DNA from: Thermoflexales bacterium
Lineage (GTDB): Bacteria; Chloroflexota; Anaerolineae; B4-G1; SLSP01
Assembly: GCA_007125545.1 (NCBI GenBank)
Contig: SLDA01000417.1
Span: forward strand, 1-41,030
Direction: 5' to 3'
Length of the DNA: 41,030 nucleotides
In this document: positions 2 through 13,762 of the stretch, piece by piece
How the letters are laid out: each line of letters starts with the position of its first letter
Numbering within the stretch: the stretch's first letter is position 1
Translations under genes and position numbers: made by a program
Notes under the pieces: generated by a model
The model's input: only the letters and a program-made list of their open reading frames with translations
Told to the model about the DNA's origin: nothing
Database searches by the model: none

Positions 2-3000
2 AAGTCCGGGTATCTTACGCTGCGGTTTAACCGGAAGCGCACCATTCCTGTTACGATCTTTTTGCGTGCTCTCGCTGCTATCGATGATCCGTTGAACAGC
101 AAGGAGTTGGTCACCGGAAGCGATGAGGAGCTGATCGAGTTGTTCCGGGAGGCTGATAACGACCCCGATCATCCCTGGATTACAGACACGATTCGTCAGG
201 AGCCTACCTGGGACCTGAAGGCTGGGCGTTCGCTCGCCGAAGAGGCGCTGATTGAGTTCTATCGCCGTATGCGCCCGGGCGACCCTCCTACGTTGGAAAA
301 TGCTCAGGAATACATGATCTCGCAGCTCTTCGACCCGCAGCGCTACAATCTGCAAGAGGTCGGTCGCTATAAGCTGAACCAGCGGATGCAGATCACGGTT
401 CCTATGTCCATTCGTACTATCACGAAAGAAGACTTTGTAGCACTGGTACGTCGTATGATTCACATCAACAACGGCGTTGCCGGACCTGACGATATGGATC
501 ATCTGGGCAACCGTCGCGTCAAGACGGTGGGTGAGTTGGTCCAGGCGAAGATTCGCATTGGTCTGGTGCGGATGGAACGGGTAGTGCGCGAGCGGATGAG
601 TATTCGTGACGAGTCACCTACGCCGGTTGGACTCATCAATATCCGCCCGGTGGTTGCCTCGATTCGCGAGTTCTTCGGTTCGAGCCAGTTGTCGCAGTTT
701 ATGGAAGAAACCAATCCCTTATCCAGCCTAACCCACAAGCGGACCTTGTCGGCTCTGGGTCCTGGTGGCTTACGGCGCGAGCGCGCAGGCTTCGATGTGC
801 GGGATGTGCATAACAGCCACTATGGTCGTATCTGCCCCATCGAAACGCCAGAGGGACCGAACATCGGTCTGATCGGTCGCCTCAGTACCTACGGCCGCGT
901 CAATCAACTGGGCTTCATCGAGACGCCCTATCGGCGCGTGATCCGTACAGCACAGAATACCGTTGAGCAACTGCAGGGCGAGATTTTGCGCGAGGATATC
1001 GAAGACCCGCAGAACGGCGAAGTGATCGCTACATCAGGGACCCACATTACGGCCGAGTTAGCTCAGCGCATGGCTAACCTACCGTTGGGGGATCGCGTAC
1101 GGATCGCGCCCCGGGTCACGAAGGAGATTCTCTATCTGTCCGCCGATCGCGAAGAGCCCTATGTTATCGCTCAGGCCAACGCGGTTCTGGATGTGAACGG
1201 GCGTTTCGTTGACTCACGTGTCGCGGCACGTAAGGGTGATGGTTTCATCTTCACGCCCGCGGATCGCATTGACTTCATCGATGTGGCACCTATCCAGATC
1301 GTGGGTGTGTCAGCGGCCCTGATCCCCTTCCTTGAGCACGATGATGCAAACCGTGCTCTGATGGGGTCAAACATGCAGCGGCAGGCTGTACCGCTCATCA
1401 GCCCCGAGGCGCCGATTGTCGGTACCGGCATCGAGCGCGACGCTGCGCTCAACTCCGGACTCGTTCTGACCACGCGCGCCGCGGGTATGGTGGTTGGCGT
1501 AACGGGTGACAGCGTGACGGTGATGCAGGATGACGGTCAGACTGTCACGCACAAGCTACAGAAGTATGCCCGCTCCAACCAAAGCACGTGCATCGATCAA
1601 CGTCCCACCGTTTCCAAGGGAGAGCGGGTCGAGGTCGGTGATGTCCTGGCGGACAGCTCTTCGACCGTATCGGGGCTGCTAGCTCTGGGACAGAATGTGC
1701 TGGTTGCGTTTATGTCGTGGGAGGGTGGTAACTTCGAGGATGCAATCCTGCTGAGCCACGATCTGGTGCGTAAGGATTACTTCACCTCTGTACACGTGGA
1801 AAAGCACGAGTTGTCGGCTCGCGATACCAAGCTAGGGCCTGAAGAGGTTACCCGTGAGCTTCCCAATGTCGCTGAAGAGGCGCTACGTGATTTGGACGAG
1901 GAAGGTATCGTTCGGGTTGGCGCCGAAGTGGGACCGCTCGACATTCTCGTGGGCAAGATTACGCCGAAGGGTGAGAAAGAGCTAACGCCTGAAGAGAAGC
2001 TTCTGCGTGCCATCTTTGGTGAGAAGCTGCGTGATGTGAAGGATACGAGTCTCCGGATGCCGCACGGCGCACACGGCAAGGTCGTCGATGTCAAAGTCTT
2101 CGACCGGGAAGAGTATCGTGATCTCCCCGCTGGTGTGGAAAAAGTTGTGCGGGTCAATGTGGCTCAGCGCCGTAAGATCACCGAGGGTGACAAAATGGCA
2201 GGGCGTCACGGCAACAAAGGCGTTATCTCGCAGATCGTGCCCGTGGAGGATATGCCCTTCTTGCTCAACGGTCGGCCCGTGGATATCATTCTGAATCCGC
2301 TCGGTGTGCCGGGCCGGATGAATATCGGACAGATTCTGGAAACCCATCTGGGTTGGGCCGCCGATCGATTGGGCTTTAACACCGTCACACCGGTGTTTGA
2401 TGGCGCAGACGAGCAGGAAATCGCAGCTGAGTTGGCCCGTGCCTGGTTGATTGACGAGGCATGGTCCGACGTCATGGAGCGTGCTTGGACCTGGCTGAAG
2501 GCGCAAGAATATCCGTTGGAGTCGTTGATCGATGATGAAGAGGCGCGACTAATCTATATTGCTGCCTGGCTGGCACCGCGGGGCTACGATATGGATCGGC
2601 TTCGCGATGACCGCGTCTTTGCGCGACGTTCTGTGTTGCGTGAGTGGTTGCGCGAGATGGGCTACGATCCCGATGAGCTGTTGTCGTTCGAAGACGATGA
2701 ACGGGATAGTGACGAACGGGCAGTCGCTGACTTACGGGTGCAAGCAGTCTGCCTACGCATCTGGATGGAAGAGCGTGGTGAACAGGTTGCGCATCTTTCC
2801 GATGAGGATCTGATCCTCGAGGCGACGCAGTATGGTCAAGCCCACAACGACCCGTTGCCCACGCTGGGGAAGGTCATTCTGATCAATGGTAAGACGGGTG
2901 AGCCCTTCGATCAGCCGGTGACGGTAGGCCTCATCTATATGCTGAAGCTGGCCCACTTGGTTGAGGACAAGGTACATACACGTTCCACCGGTCCCTATTC

Positions 3001-3361
3001 GTTGGTCACGCAACAGCCCTTGGGTGGTAAGGCACAGTTTGGTGGTCAGCGATTCGGTGAGATGGAAGTGTGGGCACTAGAGGCTTATGGCGCCGCCTAC
3101 ACGCTTCAGGAAATGCTGACGATCAAGTCGGACGATGTTCAAGGCCGTGTTAAGGCCTACGAGTCGATTGTCAAGGGGCTGCCGATCGAAGAACCGGGTA
3201 TCCCGGCCTCATTCAAAGTTCTGGTTAAGGAGTTGCAGAGTTTGGCGCTCTCGGTTGAGGCGGTAACAGACTCGGGCGAGATCCTACACTTCGGTCGTGA
3301 TGACCGACGAGCAGCCCTGCCGAAGCTGGGAATGGGCCTACTCGGGTTGGCCCCGCAGTAA
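2..3361 (+). CDS. rpoB: DNA-directed RNA polymerase subunit beta (5' end off window)
   Basis: Reading frame is open to the window edge ([24 protein letters not shown] upstream of the listed TTG). Contains [65 protein letters not shown]. Confidence 0.97.
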
Positions 3362-3382
3362 GGCCGGGAGTTGACACGACGG

Positions 3383-3410
3383 TTGACGTTTTCGATTCTT
3401 ATGATACAAT
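3383..3410 (+). promoter_or_regulatory. Putative sigma70-type promoter for rpsL operon (TTGACG-16-TACAAT)
   Basis: TTGACG at 3383-3388 and TACAAT at 3405-3410, in the 217-bp rpoB-rpsL gap. Confidence 0.55.
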
Positions 3411-3424
3411 TCCCGTTTGCATAA

Positions 3425-3511
3425 GGGTGACAGCTCAAACCCCTGTCACCCGCAACATGGACGTTACACGGTCGACAATGAGGAGGCCATCGTACTCTAG
3501 ATGGCCTTCTT
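3425..3511 (+). promoter_or_regulatory. Two tandem hairpins in rpsL leader
   Basis: GGGTGACAG(3425-3433)/CTGTCACCC(3443-3451) and AGGCCATC(3484-3491)/GATGGCCT(3500-3507). Confidence 0.5.
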
Positions 3512-3578
3512 CAGTGCGAAATGTTAGGCGACAGAGCGTAAAAGCTTTCTGAAAGTATAGATTCTAGGAGGAGAGACA

Positions 3579-3995
3579 GTGCCGACGATTAATCAGATGG
3601 TGCGTAAGGGACGCAAACCGAAGACGCAGAAGTCGCAGTCCCCTGCGCTAGCTTACAATGTTAATACGAAGAGGGGCGGTAGGCGCGCTCAGGTCAAACA
3701 GGGCAATCCTATGAAACGTGGAGTCTGCACCATCGTACGTACCACAACGCCGAAGAAACCGAACTCGGCGCTGCGCAAAATCGCTCGTGTTCGCCTCTCG
3801 AATCGTATCGAGGTTACGGCCTATATTCCTGGCGAGGGACATAACCTGCAGGAGCACTCGGTCGTGTTGGTGCGCGGTGGGCGTGTTAAAGACCTACCCG
3901 GTGTGCGCTACCATATTGTCCGCGGCGCGTTAGACTGCGCTGGAGTTGATGGTCGCCATCAGAAGCGTTCCAAGTATGGAACCAAAGCTGAATAG
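3579..3995 (+). CDS. rpsL: 30S ribosomal protein S12 (GTG start)
   Basis: [22 protein letters not shown] and [20 protein letters not shown] aggagaga upstream. Confidence 0.97.
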
Positions 3996-4012: not shown

Positions 4013-4483
4013 ATGGCTAGACGAAATCGTCCACCTAAGCGGGAAATCGAGCCCGATATTCGCTATGGCAGCGTGCCGCTGCAAAAGTTCATCAATCGGA
4101 TGATGCGTGGCGGCAAGAAGAGCATTGCTCAGGGCATCATGTATGATGCGTTGGATATGGCAGAAGCGCGTGCCAACCGTCCGGGCCTTGAAGTGTTCAC
4201 CGAAGCTATGGCAAACGTAATGCCCCCGGTTGAGGTAAAGCCTCGCCGTGTGGGTGGTGCGACCTATCAGATTCCGGTGGAGGTGGCGGAGCATCGCCAG
4301 CTTTCGCTGGGGATCCGATGGATGCTGGCCGCCGCGCGCAATCGGCCGGGACGCGGCATGGCGGCAAAGTTGGCGGCAGAGCTGGTGGATGCCGCAAGCG
4401 GAACCGGGTCTGCCGTGAAGCGGCGTGAAGACACGTTGCGGATGGCTGAAGCCAACCGGGCATTTGCACATCTGCGCTGGTAG
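4013..4483 (+). CDS. rpsG: 30S ribosomal protein S7
   Basis: 156 aa; [15 protein letters not shown] and [15 protein letters not shown]. Confidence 0.97.
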
Positions 4484-4561
4484 GCATAGAGACTCTGCCC
4501 TTAATCCAGAGCGGCGAGTTCTAAAGGGCTATCGCTGCACAGGTTGACTGAGGATATTGCG

Positions 4562-6640
4562 ATGGCCGAAGCACATTCACTAGAGCAAATACGCAACATA
4601 GGGATCATTGCCCACATCGATGCGGGCAAGACGACCACAACGGAGCGCATTCTCTTCTACACCGGGCGCACGCACCGGCTTGGTAACGTGGACGAAGGTA
4701 CCACAGTTACCGACTGGATGGCCCAGGAGAGGGAACGCGGGATCACGATAACGTCTGCGGCGGTGACGTGTTTCTGGAATGACTGCCAGATCAATATCGT
4801 GGATACACCCGGGCATATCGACTTCACAGCCGAGGTACAGCGCAGCTTGCGAGTTCTTGACGGTGGAGTGGTCGTCTTCGATGGAATGGCGGGTGTGGAG
4901 CCGCAATCGGAAACGGTGTGGCGACAGGCTCAGGCCTTTCATGTACCACTGATCGCCTTCGTGAATAAGATGGACAAACTGGGCGCTGATTTCGCGCACG
5001 CAGTGGAAACCATTCGCGAGCGATTGGCCGCTAATCCGGTGCCCATTCAGTGGCCTATCGGCGCTGAAGCTGCCTTCGAGGGTTTGGTCGATCTCATCGA
5101 GTGGCGTGCGATGGTCTGGTCGGATGGCTTGGGCCAGCAACGGCAGTATGTGCCGGTGCCGCCTGAGGTCGAAGATGTGGCGCTAGAGGCCCGTGAGGCT
5201 ATGATCGAGGCAATCGTCGAAACCGACGATGAGTTGATGATGGTCTATCTGGAGGGGGACGAAATTCCACCTTCAGACTTGCGGTCTGCGCTACGCAAGG
5301 CGACCGTGAGTGGGATCATCCAGCCTGTGTTGTGTGGGTCTTCACTGCGTAACAAGGGCATTCAGCCATTGCTAGATGCAGTTGTTGATTTTTTGCCTTC
5401 ACCTGCGGATGTGCCGCCGGTGCAGGGGCAGAATCCAAAGAAGGACCAAGTAGAGGAACGACCTGCGGATGCATCGGCACCGCTGGCAGCATTGATCTTT
5501 AAAATAGCGACAGATCCCTATGCGGGGCGATTGGCCTATTTCCGGATTTACTCCGGGAGCCTCAAGCGTGGTGATGTCTACCTGAATGCAGGCAAGCAGA
5601 CACGCGAACGTATCAGCAAGCTGCTGCGAATGTTCGCCGATCGACGCGAAGAAGTCGACGAACTGACAGCGGGTGATATCGGGGCAACCGTAGGGTTGCG
5701 AAACACCGTGACCGGTGATACGCTTTCGGCGATGCACGCGCCAATCGTTCTGGAATCCATTCGCTTCCCAGAACCTGTGATTTCCGTAGCTGTGGAGCCC
5801 AAAACCGTTGCGGACCAGGATCACTTGAATGAGGCCCTGGAGCGCTTAGCGGAAGAGGACCCAACATTCCGGGTCCGGATGGACGATGGCACTGGGCAGA
5901 CGGTCCTATCTGGAATGGGCGAGTTACACCTGGAGATTCTTGTCGACAGAATGTTGCGCGAGTTCCGGGTGGAAGCGAATGTCGGAAAGCTGCGGGTGGC
6001 CTACAAAGAAACGGTCACAAATACCGGGCGAGCCGAAGTTGTCTTCAACCGTATGCTAGCCGGCAAGCCGCAGTATGCCCGCGTAGCTCTGGAAGTAAGT
6101 CCGGTTGAAAGTGGAGAAGCATCAGAGTTTGTCAATCTCTTGCGTCCGCAGGACCTGGCGGCCCGGTACGTTGAGGCGGTCAGAGCTGGGGCGCTACAGT
6201 CGTTGGATAGCGGCTTTTTGGCTGGATATCCGCTGGTAGGGATCAAGGTTTCGCTTGTGAGCGCGCAGGCAGATGAGGCGCTTTCCACAGAGATCGCATT
6301 CAAAGCGGCGTCAGCGCAGGCTTTTCGTGAGGCGATTGAGCTGGCGCAGCCGGTTTTACTTGAGCCGGTGATGGATGTGGAAGTGGTGATGCCAGAAGGG
6401 TTCATCGGTGAGGTTCTGGGTGATTTGAACGCCCGATCTGCCGACATCAGGCTGATGGAGCCCCGCGCAGGCGGTGGTCAGGCAATCCGGGCATTTGTCC
6501 CCCTGACCAAAATGTTTGGGTATGCTACGGACTTGCGCAGTATGTCGCAGGGGCGAGGCACATTCACAATGGAGTTTCACCATTACCAACCGGTGGACTC
6601 CCGGCAGATGGATGCTATCGTGTATGGGTACGGTGCGTAG
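4562..6640 (+). CDS. fusA: Elongation factor G (ATG 4562 preferred over listed TTG 4544)
   Basis: [66 protein letters not shown] upstream of ATG. Confidence 0.93.
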
Positions 6641-6760: not shown

Positions 6761-7981
6761 ATGGCAAAAGAGCTTTTCGAGCGCACTAAGCCACATGTGA
6801 ATGTCGGCACGATTGGTCACATCGACCACGGCAAGACGACCTTGACCGCGGCTATTACACGCACGCTATCCCTAAAAGGGTGGGCCGACAATAAAGGCTA
6901 TGATGAAGTCGCGAAGGCAGATGCTAAAATGTTCCGTCGCGATGCGACCAAGATTCTGACCGTCGCAATCTCGCACGTCGAGTATGAGACCGAGAACCGG
7001 CACTACGCGCATGTGGACTGCCCTGGTCACCGTGACTACATTAAGAATATGATCACCGGTGCGGCTCAGATGGACGGCGCAATTCTGGTCGTTTCGGCCG
7101 TTGATGGTCCGATGCCCCAGACGCGTGAGCACATCCTCCTGGCACAGCAGGTTGAGGTTCCGGCCATCGTGGTTTACCTGAACAAGGTCGACTTGATGGA
7201 TGACCCCGAGCTGTTGGAGCTCGTGGAGTTGGAGATTCGCGAGTTGCTTAGCAGCTATCAATATCCCGGCGATGAGATCCCGATCGTTCAGGGTTCTGCA
7301 CTGGCCGCATTGAACAGCCAGAGCAGCGATCCCGAGGATCCAGCTTATGCGTCGATTTGGGAGTTGATGCGTGTGGTGGATGAGTATATCCCCACCCCCG
7401 AGCGCCACGAGGATCGTCCCTTCTTGATGCCGATCGAGGATGTTTTCTCCATCAAGGGACGTGGTACGGTGGTCACCGGTCGTGTGGAGCGCGGTACGCT
7501 GCGTCCCAACACCGAGGTCGAACTGGTAGGCGATATCTACGAGAAGCCGCGGCGGACCGTTGTTACGTCTATGGAGATGTTCCACAAAATTCTGGATGTG
7601 GTTCGCGCGGGGGATAATGCAGGTTTGCTCTTGCGGGGTGTTGGCAAGGACGAGGTCGGTCGCGGTGTGGTTGTGGCTGCACCCAATAGCATTCAGGCGC
7701 GTCGCACTTTCGAGGCCCAGGTCTACATCTTGCGCAAGGATGAAGGTGGACGGCACAAGCCCTTCTTCACCGGCTATAAGCCGCAGTTCTTCATCAACAC
7801 GATGGATATCACGGGTCAGGTTGCACTACCCGAGGGCGTGGAGATGGTGATGCCGGGCGATGATACACGGATGACCGTGGAACTGATGAGCCCTGTCGCA
7901 CTTGAGGCAGGACACCGCTTCGCCATTCGCGAGGGTGGTCTGACCGTCGGTGCTGGCGTTATTACCAAGATTCTCGAATAG
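6761..7981 (+). CDS. tuf: Elongation factor Tu with atypical switch I
   Basis: [48 protein letters not shown] and domains 2/3 typical of EF-Tu. RGITI is absent (reads KILTV). Confidence 0.93.
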
Positions 7982-8006: not shown

Positions 8007-8315
8007 ATGGCTAAACAACGCATTCGCATTCGGTTAAAGGGATACGATCACCGCATTCTGGATGAGTCGGCGCGCCGCATCGTGGAGGCTGCCGAACGAA
8101 CAGGTGCTCGTGTCGCGGGTCCTGTACCCTTGCCCACTAAGCTCGAACGTTTCACCGTTCGGCGCTCGCCTTTCATTGACAAGGACAGCCACGAGCACTT
8201 TGAGATTCGTACACATAAGCGGTTGATCGACATCCAAGATCCGGATTCGAAGACGATTGATACGCTGATGCGGCTCAATATGCCGGCCGGCGTCGATATC
8301 GAGATTAAACTGTAG
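8007..8315 (+). CDS. rpsJ: 30S ribosomal protein S10
   Basis: 102 aa; [31 protein letters not shown]. Confidence 0.97.
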
Positions 8316-9202: not shown

Positions 9203-9880
9203 ATGCTTATTCCCGTCGTGAATATGCAGGGGGAGAAGGTCGGCGAGACCGAATTGCGCCAGGAGATCTTTGAAGCCCCGGTAAATGTACCGTTGATGCA
9301 TCAGGCATTGGTACGGCAGTTGGCAAATGCTCGCTTGGGGACGCACAAGACTAAGACCCGCAGCGAAAACAACCGCACTAAATCGAAGTGGTATCGCCAA
9401 AAGGGCACCGGACGTGCGCGTCACGGGAGCCGTAATGCGCCGATCTTCGTGGGTGGTGGTATCGCTCATGGTCCGCGCCCCCGTAGCTATGAGAAGCGGA
9501 TGCCGCGCAAGATGCGCCGCGCTGCACTGCGCTCGGCGCTGTCGGCAAAGGCAGGGGCTCAGCACCTCGTGGTCGTGGATGAGTTGATGATGGCTGCGCC
9601 CAAGACCAAGGAAATGGCTCAGATGTTGAGCCGGATTGCACCGGGGTCGAGTAAGACGTTGATTTTGCTGCCGGAGCGCAATACGGCGGTCGAGTTGTCG
9701 GTGCGCAATATGCCGACGGCCAACACGTTGCGCGCGCACTATCTGAACGTTCGAGACCTCCTGAGTGCTGATATTCTTGTGCTGCCGTTGGCCTCCCTTG
9801 AGGTGATCGAGTCGATCTTGGGTAACGGTGCCCCCGAGGGCGATCGCGTGACCGTACAGAGCGGTGAGGCCGAGGAGTAG
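9203..9880 (+). CDS. rplD: 50S ribosomal protein L4
   Basis: [39 protein letters not shown]. Confidence 0.96.
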
Positions 9881-9886
9881 AGTTCT

Positions 9887-10174
9887 ATGAACATTTATGA
9901 GATTATCGTGCGACCGCTAGAAACTGAGAAATCGTATCTGCTTCGCGAAGAGGGCCAGTATGCCTTCATCGTCAATATGAGCGCGAACAAACTCGAGATC
10001 AAGCGGGCGATTGAAGAGATTTACGGGGTTGATGTTGACCGCGTGAGAACGATGGTGGTGCCGGGCAAGGCTAACAAGATGCGCGGGCGACGTCAGGTCG
10101 CCCGGCGCGCGCCGTGGAAGAAGGCTCTGGTATCCTTGGCTTCCGGACAGCGTATCGAAGCGTTGGAGGCATAA
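9887..10174 (+). CDS. rplW: 50S ribosomal protein L23
   Basis: [36 protein letters not shown]. Confidence 0.95.
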
Positions 10175-10175
10175 G

Positions 10176-11024
10176 ATGGCGATCAAGAAGTTTAGTCCTA
10201 CATCTCCTGGTCGTCGTCATATGACGGGCCATACCTTTGAAGAGATCACGCGCACTGAGCCGGAGAAAAGCTTGTTGCGTCCACTGTCCAACAAGGCTGG
10301 GCGGAATGCCCATGGACGGATCACCGTGCGTCATCGTGGTGGCGGACATGCGCGCAGCTATCGGCTTATCGATTTCAAGCGCGATAAGTTTGACATCCCG
10401 GCGCGAGTCGATTCTATCGAATACGACCCTAACCGCTCATCGCGTATCGCGCTGTTGGTCTATGCCGATGGTGAGAAGCGCTACATTCTGGCGCCCTTGG
10501 GACTGAAGGTGAATGACACCGTATTAAGCTCTCGTCTCGAGGGTGAGGTGCGCGTGGGCAATTCGCTACCGGTCGGACGTATCCCTATGGGTACGTTGGT
10601 GCACAACATAGAGATCTATCCCGGTCGTGGCGGACAGATGGTCCGCGCAGCGGGAGCCGCCGCGCAGTTGATGGCGCGCGAAGGTGATTATGTAACCGTG
10701 CGCTTGCCGAGCGGTGAAATTCGCCGGGTGCGCAATGTGTGTATGGCGACCGTGGGCCAAGTCGGCAATGTGGAACATGCTAATGTGAAGTTAGGTAAGG
10801 CCGGTCGCAGACGCTGGTTGGGTTGGCGTCCTGCCGTTCGTGGTTCGGCGATGTCGCCGCGTGATCACCCCCATGGGGGTGGTGAGGGACGCTCGCCGAT
10901 TGGTATGCCCGGACCGAAGTCCCCGTGGGGATGGCGTACACTGGGTAGGAAGACTCGCCGCAACAAGGATACTAACAAGTACATTGTTCGGCGGCGTCAG
11001 ACGGGTTCTCGCCGTCGTCGCTAG
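10176..11024 (+). CDS. rplB: 50S ribosomal protein L2
   Basis: [45 protein letters not shown]. Confidence 0.97.
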
Positions 11025-11041
11025 TAAGGGAGGAAGTTGTT

Positions 11042-11329
11042 ATGTCACGTTCCTTGAAGAAGGGGCCGTACGTAGATCCGAAGCTGTTGCACAAGGTAGA
11101 GGAGATGAATCGTACCGGCAACAAGCGTGTGATTCGAACTTGGTCGAGGGCTTCGGTCATCTTCCCGCAGATGGTCGGGCATACGTTGGCCGTCCACGAT
11201 GGGCGGCGGCACGTCCCGATATACATCACGGAGAATATGGTCGGGCATCGGCTGGGTGAGTTCGCGCCGACCCGGACGTTCCGAGGCCACGTCGGCCGGG
11301 AAAAGAAAGTCCGAGTGATGGTGAGGTAA
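11042..11329 (+). CDS. rpsS: 30S ribosomal protein S19
   Basis: [39 protein letters not shown]. Confidence 0.97.
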
Positions 11330-11333
11330 GCAG

Positions 11334-11687
11334 ATGGCCGAAACTGTTCAAGCCAAAGCACGTCATATTCCGATGTCGGCACTCAAGGTGCGACGGGTCA
11401 TTGATGCTGTACGCGGGATGCCGGCGCATGCCGCAATGGATGCCTTGCGCGAGATGCCCCAAGCCGCTGCGCTTCCAGTGTACAAGGTTATTCGTTCCGC
11501 TGTTGCGAATGCAGATGAAAAAGGGTTGGATATCAACGCTCTTTACATCACTCTGCTAACCGCAGATGAAGGACCCGGTGTGATGCCCGGTAAGGGCTGG
11601 CGGGCGCGTTGGGGTAGCCGTGGGCGCTATCGACCCATTCGCAAGCGTTCGTCCCATATCGCGGTCGTTCTTGAGGAACGACTGTAG
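11334..11687 (+). CDS. rplV: 50S ribosomal protein L22
   Basis: ARHIPMSALKVRRVIDAVRG; GRYRPIRKRSSHIAVVL. Confidence 0.95.
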   Translation: MAETVQAKARHIPMSALKVRRVIDAVRGMPAHAAMDALREMPQAAALPVYKVIRSAVANADEKGLDINALYITLLTADEGPGVMPGKGWRARWGSRGRYRPIRKRSSHIAVVLEERL

Positions 11688-11713
11688 TAGTCGCAGTTTT
11701 AAGGAGGCATATC

Positions 11714-12424
11714 TTGGGACGCAAAGTTCATCCCTATGGTTTTCGCTTAAAGGTAGTCCGAGATTGGAAATCTCGTTGGTTTGCGAAGGGCCGTGAGTAC
11801 GCAGACTTGCTGGATGAAGATCAGAAGATTCGGGCAATGATCTATCGAGAGTTGACCGACCGGTCGCGTGACGGGCAGAGTGGTGTGTCCCGCATCGAGA
11901 TCGAACGCTTCCCGCCGAATCAGATCTCGGTCATTATCTGGACCTCGCGTCCGGGTGTCGTGATCGGACGTAAGGGCGATAGTGTCAAGGCGCTGCGCCG
12001 GGACGTCGAGGAGTTGTCGGGTGGCAAGCGGGTGCACATTGATGTTCAAGAAGTGGAGCAGCCCGATCTGGATGCCAAGCTGGTGGCGGAGAATATCGTC
12101 GCGCAGCTGGAGAAGCGTATCTACCACAGCCGTGCGATGAAGCGCGCTGTGCGGCAGGCAATGCGTGCCGGCGCAGAAGGTATCCGGGTTATGTGCAGTG
12201 GGCGTCTCGCCGGTTCGGAGATGGCACGGGTCACGTGGATGCGCGAGGGGCGTGTGCCCCTGCACACACTGCGTGCGGATATCGATTTCGCTCTGGAAGA
12301 GGCTAACACCGCTTATGGAGCTATCGGTGTCAAGGTCTGGATCTATAAGGGAGAGATTCTCCCTCAGCGATCCACGCCTACCGAAGAGCACGCGAGCGCG
12401 CCTGTCAGCGCGGCTGCTGATTAG
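11714..12424 (+). CDS. rpsC: 30S ribosomal protein S3 (TTG start)
   Basis: MGRKVHPYGFRL; RPGVVIGRKGDSVKALR; RBS aaggagg. Confidence 0.96.
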   Translation: MGRKVHPYGFRLKVVRDWKSRWFAKGREYADLLDEDQKIRAMIYRELTDRSRDGQSGVSRIEIERFPPNQISVIIWTSRPGVVIGRKGDSVKALRRDVEELSGGKRVHIDVQEVEQPDLDAKLVAENIVAQLEKRIYHSRAMKRAVRQAMRAGAEGIRVMCSGRLAGSEMARVTWMREGRVPLHTLRADIDFALEEANTAYGAIGVKVWIYKGEILPQRSTPTEEHASAPVSAAAD

Positions 12425-12453
12425 TCCCCGCGTTGGGGTAAGGAGATCGAGCT

Positions 12454-12885
12454 ATGTTGATGCCGAAACGCGTCAAGTATCGAAAACAGCATCGCGGGCG
12501 GATGACGGGCAAGGAGAGCCGTGGCGTCCGGGTCGATTTCGGCGACTACGGGTTGCAGGCACTGGAGCCCTCGTGGATTTCCGCTCGCCAGATCGAGGCG
12601 GCACGTCGGGCGCTCGTGCGCCATATGCGCCGTCGCGGAATGTACTGGGTGCGCATCTTCCCTGATAAGCCCATTACCAGTAAGCCGGCTGAGACCCGGA
12701 TGGGTAAGGGTAAGGGTGATGTGGACTATTGGGCCGCCGTGGTGCGCCCGGGCCGAGTTCTATTCGAGATCGGCGGGGTGCCGGATGATATAGCTAGAGA
12801 GGCGCTAGATCTGGCGTCCCATAAGCTGCCCATCCGGACCCAAATCATCACGCGTATCGAGTACGGTGGAGAGGCAGGAGAGTAA
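12454..12885 (+). CDS. rplP: 50S ribosomal protein L16
   Basis: [44 protein letters not shown]. Confidence 0.97.
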
Positions 12886-12887
12886 GT

Positions 12888-13106
12888 ATGGAAGCCACTG
12901 AGTATCGTGATATGACATCTGAAAACCTGCGCACTCGCCTGCAGGAGACTCGCCGCGAGTTGTTTAACTTGCGCCAGCAATGGTACGCTGGCAGCTTACA
13001 GGATCACAATCGACTGCGTGCTGTCCGCAAGGATATCGCTCGTATCCTGACGGTCCTGCGGGAGCGAGAGTTGGCTGCGGAAAATCAGGAAGGAGCGGCG
13101 GCATGA
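12888..13106 (+). CDS. rpmC: 50S ribosomal protein L29
   Basis: Short basic protein, [11 protein letters not shown]...[18 protein letters not shown], correct operon position. Confidence 0.93.
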
Positions 13107-13354
13107 AGGAACGGCGGCGACGGCTGGTTGGTACGGTCACCAGTGACAAAATGGAAAAGACTGTAGTGGTGGTTGTTGAGCGACACTACCGTCATGCACT
13201 CTACGAGAAGGTAGTGCGCGCTGCCAAGAAGTATATGGCGCACGACGAGAACGGTGACTGTCACGTTGGTGACAAGGTCCAGATCGTGGAGACACGCCCT
13301 CATAGCCGGCGCAAGCGCTGGTCTGTTGAGGAAATTCTGGAGCGTGCTGTCTAG
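13103..13354 (+). CDS. rpsQ: 30S ribosomal protein S17
   Basis: ATG 13103 overlaps the rpmC stop (ATGA). [31 protein letters not shown]. The listed ORF start 12980 is too long. Confidence 0.95.
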
Positions 13355-13390
13355 GCGCGGGCCTGGACGGCACGGTGAGGGAGTCGTGCG

Positions 13391-13762
13391 ATGATTCAAC
13401 GAGAAACGCGTCTTAAGGTTGCAGATAATACAGGTGCACAAGAAGTGCTCTGCATTCAGGTTCTGGGAGGTTCGGGGCGCCGCTATGGCACTGTGGGTGA
13501 TTCTATCGTCGCCACAGTTAAATCGGCTACACCCACCTCCTCCGTGAAAAAGGGTGAGGTTGTTCGAGCTGTTATCGTGCGCGTTGCCAAGGAGTACCGC
13601 CGGCCGGATGGGTCGTATATTCGTTTTGACGACAACGCTGCGGTTATTCTGGATAGTGCGGGAATCAACCCGCGGGGGACGCGCATCTTCGGGCCCGTTG
13701 CCCGGGAGCTGCGCGAAAAAGGCTATATGAGGATTGTGTCGCTGGCGCCCGAAGTACTTTAG
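13391..13762 (+). CDS. rplN: 50S ribosomal protein L14
   Basis: [51 protein letters not shown]. Confidence 0.97.

Follow-up and report, generated by a model that had tools for sequence, protein, structure and literature searches.

An alternative switch I cassette in the elongation factor Tu of a Chloroflexota order, with a possibly rebuilt GDP state

Few stretches in biology are as conserved as switch I of EF-Tu, which textbooks present as the place where the protein toggles between its GTP and GDP states. In the window, the whole 41,030-nucleotide stretch of DNA analyzed here, the tuf gene encodes a full-length EF-Tu in which this segment is replaced by a longer cassette that reads KILTV in the place of RGITI and retains a single switch I residue, the threonine of the Mg and γ-phosphate site. 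On balance, we lean towards the joint proposal that this gene is the housekeeping EF-Tu of a Chloroflexota order (whose MAGs are named Thermoflexales or Thermoflexia) and that its product is a working EF-Tu in which the contacts of the GTP state would survive and the hairpin of the GDP state (D50, K56, and G59-I60 in E. coli numbering) would be rebuilt. There is thus a conserved natural alternative to a segment of the translation machinery that nearly all bacteria have in common and that was considered close to immutable.

Apart from the cassette, the gene and its surroundings are those of an ordinary tuf. The str operon runs in the usual order of rpsL, rpsG, fusA, tuf, and rpsJ (Table 1), and the protein scores 632 bits against TIGR00485, the curated EF-Tu equivalog, for which the cut-off is 522 bits, and also matches PF00009, PF03144, and PF03143. 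The G1, G3, G4, and G5 motifs and the catalytic histidine are all present, with NKVD and GSAL retained, so that the initial annotation was right that a full-length GTPase keeps the Mg-coordinating threonine, the SHVEYET strand, the P-loop, DCPGH, NKVD, and GSAL. An AlphaFold (AF2) model has a mean pLDDT of 88 and a TM score of 0.92 to 1exm/1eft, with the three-domain fold in the GTP-form arrangement; the cassette itself has a pLDDT below 50 in two AlphaFold runs, and the TM and fold match concerns the body of the protein only. By Foldseek, the Thermus EF-Tu is 61% identical. With canonical EF-Tu (E. coli and Thermus thermophilus) the protein shares the three domains, the P-loop, DCPGH, NKVD, GSAL, the equivalent of Thr-61, and the str-operon position; it differs in the replacement of residues 49–62 with a gain of five residues, the change of D50 to alanine, and KILTV for RGITI.

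Table 1. Features of the tuf locus in the window.
Feature	Position	Strand	Comment
rpsL ORF (S12)	3579..3995	+	str operon
rpsG (S7)	4013..4483	+	str operon
fusA (EF-G)	4544..6640	+	switch I is the ordinary RERGITI
tuf (EF-Tu, 406 aa)	6761..7981	+	one tuf in the assembly; TIGR00485, three Pfam EF-Tu domains
P-loop GHIDHGKTT (G1)	6815..6841	+	canonical
Alternative switch I cassette, residues 47-68	6899..6964	+	+5 residues, in place of YDQIDNAPEEKARGITI
Ala51	6911..6913	+	Asp50 (E. coli numbering) otherwise invariant; Ala in all 52 KILT-type proteins, Asp in all 42 canonical ones
Core D-A-T-K-I-L-T, residues 61-67	6941..6961	+	includes Thr67, the Thr61 equivalent
SHVEYET strand after switch I	6971..6991	+	canonical
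DCPGH, start of switch II	7016..7030	+	canonical; with catalytic His (H84 equivalent)
rpsJ (S10)	8007..8315	+	downstream of tuf

Several minor features of the neighborhood were seen in passing. In the window (62–3579) and in the related contigs L072, L074, L214, and L215, rpsL follows rpoB at a distance of 218 to ∼410 bases, without space for rpoC between them; the gap is ∼1.2 kb in L095. In L214 (genome G120, 9645–12525), an insertion of ∼2.9 kb separates rplC from rplD, compared with ∼100 bases in relatives, and in L211 (G196, 11668–13648) fusA is in two overlapping pieces, probably through a frameshift or sequencing error.

Comparison with 42 canonical Chloroflexota EF-Tus and with E. coli bore out the original description of a switch I that lacks RGITI, is about 5 residues longer (exactly five more than YDQIDNAPEEKARGITI), and carries KILTV instead. 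Across the lineages with this type of switch, the consistent differences from the 42 canonical proteins are D50 to alanine, I60 to leucine, and an inserted D-x-[TS]-K-I, with Thr-61 retained, giving a general form [VI]AK...R-D-x-T-K-I-L-T-[VI]. We propose to call KILT class those EF-Tus with [VI]AK at E. coli positions 49–51 and K-I-L-T-[VI] at the place of RGITI, two or five residues longer than canonical, and the window EF-Tu belongs to it. Residues A51, D61, K64, I65, L66, and T67 are common to all relatives of the type (52/52, the proteins of one alignment, from which L252 and L253, two short forms found afterwards, are absent), more than chance could explain, and the Thr-61 equivalent aligns in the same 52; coordination of Mg and the γ-phosphate is the predicted role of this aligned threonine. 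In L252 and L253 the R-D-x-T part is variable and KILT is retained. Identity within the loop is low, and the pairing of single residues, such as R58 with R59 or K64, is uncertain. The translational GTPase signature around RGITI (PROSITE PS00301), a motif rather than a functional definition, is matched by 42/42 canonical proteins and by 0/57 of the alternative type; signatures of this kind, and the assumption of universal EF-Tu sites, fail in such lineages.

Within the order, the cassette is 97.4% identical at the protein level, above the flanking strand and switch II (94%) and the stretch that follows (84%), whereas its four-fold silent sites are only 40% identical, much like those elsewhere in the gene. 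The silent sites are saturated, and given the contrast between protein and silent-site identity, the cassette is under strong, long-lasting purifying selection.

Known structures suggest which state of the protein the replacement would affect. With GTP bound, Thr-61 is the only switch I residue to touch the nucleotide directly (PMC6950810). With GDP bound, the protein is in its open form and switch I folds into a β hairpin; F46, I49, and D50 then stabilize the nucleotide, and K56 and R59 contribute to the hairpin state (PMC5851678). Given that the cassette retains the Thr-61 contact and drops or moves most of the hairpin residues, we infer that the on-state is ordinary and the off-state rebuilt, the argument for the latter being built on E. 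coli structures. In the GTP state, the retained threonine would coordinate Mg and the γ-phosphate, Leu-66 may stand in for Ile-60 of the hydrophobic gate, and the parts left unchanged (the following strand, switch II, the residues at the tRNA 5′-end, and domains 2 and 3) would work as usual, with aminoacyl-tRNA delivery and GTP hydrolysis probably as in any EF-Tu. The change would be felt mainly in the GDP state, where D50 (which sits on GDP), K56, and G59-I60 are absent or moved and the longer segment with its invariant D-x-[TS]-K-I would take their place. On this proposal we would expect an altered affinity for GDP, a different rate of spontaneous or EF-Ts-driven exchange, and a different off-state hairpin, whereas the on-state should be normal and the ribosomes ordinary. 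The natural replacement separates the features that the switch requires (the threonine, the gate, and the following strand) from those that are customary (D50, K56, and R58-G59), and offers a ready-made cassette swap with which to probe the role of the loop in the GDP state, EF-Ts exchange, decoding fidelity, and proteases or modifications directed at switch I.

The genome of the window (G000) contains one tuf at the EF-Tu level, and no second copy was found there. A profile of the switch region gave one cassette match in each of 46 of the 48 genomes of the order, with scores across the proteins searched falling into two groups (at least 83 bits for the KILT type and at most 69 bits for canonical proteins); the remaining two assemblies yielded no tuf of any kind, consistent with gaps in the MAGs. 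Of the earlier suggestions, the one that stands is thus that of a rewired switch in the sole EF-Tu of the lineage. The systematic genome survey covered Chloroflexota, where the type is patchy, scoring in 6/400 genomes when the phylum was sampled evenly. Families f1–f3, which make up the order, have the long cassette (+5), as do f9, f41, and f70, the class of f70 being represented by one genome, and in all of these the gene sits in the str operon; in f41 the cassette is VAKASEKQGRRDDTKILTI, and some genomes carry two copies. A short form (+2; IAKGGVVR...KILTV) is found in f100, f152, f156, and f168 (5/294 genomes of another class). A third form, from f79 (L254, genome G631), has the short cassette ADITKGGTVRDETKTVTIA, which is of the same class and differs in reading KTVTI for KILTV and in being only two residues longer than canonical. 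A tuf in a Chromatiales MAG labeled Gammaproteobacteria (L079) is Anaerolineae-like, likely by contamination of the bin.

Outside the genome survey, plasmid tufs appear canonical, the two nearest solved structures among those listed carry a canonical switch I, and viral contigs gave no KILT-type EF-Tu, the one chance match not being an EF-Tu. Planctomycete EF-Tus in public databases presumably read much like the KTVTI-type cassette. EF-Tus with a KILT-type switch I must already be deposited in such databases under the plain name EF-Tu. In the literature searched, we found no published description of a KILT-type switch I, nor any biochemical or structural work on such a protein, and a 2026 paper on EF-Tu diversity mentions neither Chloroflexi nor the insertion.

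In f9 and f70, the cassette is in the str-operon copy and a second tuf of canonical length has an altered switch I. These second genes lie in a tRNA-Thr/Tyr/Thr...Trp locus (f9) or beside nusG (f70), read RQGITI (together with DCPSH, in G053), EQGITV, or HGVGI in the place of RGITI, and fall on long branches (L117 and L185 of f9, L246 of f70), with the Thr-61 equivalent lost in L246. Fast-evolving second tufs (L117/L217 in G053, L185/L216 in G120, and L246 in G415) have further odd residues, DCPSH and T382A. They look relaxed or repurposed, perhaps GTPases with a new task or genes on the way to becoming pseudogenes, which suggests that the cassette copy has taken over the main role and that the other copy was released or put to a new use.

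The origin of the cassette was considered with two trees. In a tree of EF-Tu from which the cassette was left out, the type must have changed at least four times. The AU test rejected one clade of all KILT proteins in this body tree (p = 0.007), but did not reject grouping of the order with f9 (p 0.23) or with f70 (p 0.07). In the rpsL-rpsG-fusA tree, f9 is joined to the order, and this tree is compatible with a single origin. Judging by both trees, the cassette may have arisen once or several times, and their disagreement could be explained by concerted evolution between tuf copies or by transfer of segments. SelB, aIF2-γ, CysN, and EF-G belong to the same GTPase superfamily, and all score far below EF-Tu for the window protein; given these scores and the RERGITI of the operon's own EF-G, nothing indicates that switch I was borrowed from a sister family. 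We entertain, as a tentative and rather less probable extension of our proposal, an ancient second class of EF-Tu in several Chloroflexota classes and probably other phyla, marked by a switch I that can be exchanged as a module (R-D-x-T-K-[IT]-[LV]-T or a variant of it). This class would have a different GDP off-state and exchange cycle, tend to displace the canonical copy in genomes that contain both, and be immune to enzymes acting on RGITI.

Among positions conserved in the 42 canonical relatives, those changed in every KILT lineage all lie within E. coli residues 49–62, and no consistently co-varying EF-Tu residue was found outside switch I when the KILT lineages were set against these 42. 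H84, K89, N90, and T382 are retained, as are drug-site, tRNA-end, and catalytic residues, and helices h5, h8, h14, and h15 of 16S rRNA have no KILT-specific change in a comparison of 10 KILT with 7 canonical genomes. Hence the cassette is modular and self-contained. The same observations are what would be expected if the cassette were a functional equivalent of RGITI that arose once or a few times, was fixed with compensations inside switch I, and is held by epistasis as a historical accident. We regard this as the best of the other explanations and still an unlikely one, since its spread over several lineages, and the fact that in f9 and f70 it is the canonical-type copy that decays, point to an advantage of the cassette copy where both exist.

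Slightly less likely again is that the cassette is an escape from attack or modification at switch I. Lit, encoded by the E. coli element e14, cleaves EF-Tu between Gly-59 and Ile-60 (PMC3014915), a pair present in every canonical relative and in no KILT type, where K56 is also gone or moved; avoiding a Lit-type cut site or K56-modifying enzymes might protect against enzymes triggered by phage or delivered by competitors. The patchy distribution and modular swap are compatible with such an arms race, but the near-invariance of the cassette across the order suggests constraint rather than continuing conflict, and RGITI is retained in EF-G.

Co-evolution with an altered partner, be it EF-Ts, 23S rRNA, a ribosomal protein, or a tRNA set, has some appeal for a segment that faces the ribosome and the exchange cycle and is changed throughout the order, yet we consider it improbable with ordinary 16S rRNA near the factor, RERGITI in the EF-G of the same operon, and EF-Tu free of co-variation elsewhere.

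We give very little credence to a specialized paralog or an elfamycin-insensitive form, both raised by the initial annotation. The window tuf is the str-operon copy in a genome with no other, and where f9 and f70 have a second copy it is that one which decays. R333, a site of pulvomycin-resistance mutations, is asparagine in the window protein, which could bear on pulvomycin, but it varies independently of the cassette, and the residues of the kirromycin site are kept (L120, Q124, G316, A375, and E378 invariant, Y160 nearly so). Two further oddities mentioned by the initial annotation need correcting: the leucine of REGGLTVG occurs in 34/42 canonical relatives and is therefore a trait of the class, and the variant 14-residue segment comes down to residues 340 and 346 of the window protein (7778–7798; R327K and R333N by E. 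coli numbering), which vary inside the group and among relatives and show no tie to the cassette.

An assembly error, frameshift, or pseudogene can be dismissed for practical purposes, MAG assembly and one apparently chimeric relative notwithstanding, given that the cassette recurs, near-invariant in protein and saturated at silent sites, across dozens of separate assemblies. When canonical genes were translated out of frame, the products were no closer to the cassette than shuffled sequences, and an origin by frameshift was rejected. The relative concerned, G034, has at a contig end (L119) a tuf that resembles Thermoflexus over its first ∼90 residues and the canonical lineages thereafter; another partial tuf begins there on a different contig (L118), and the two are probably an assembly chimera.
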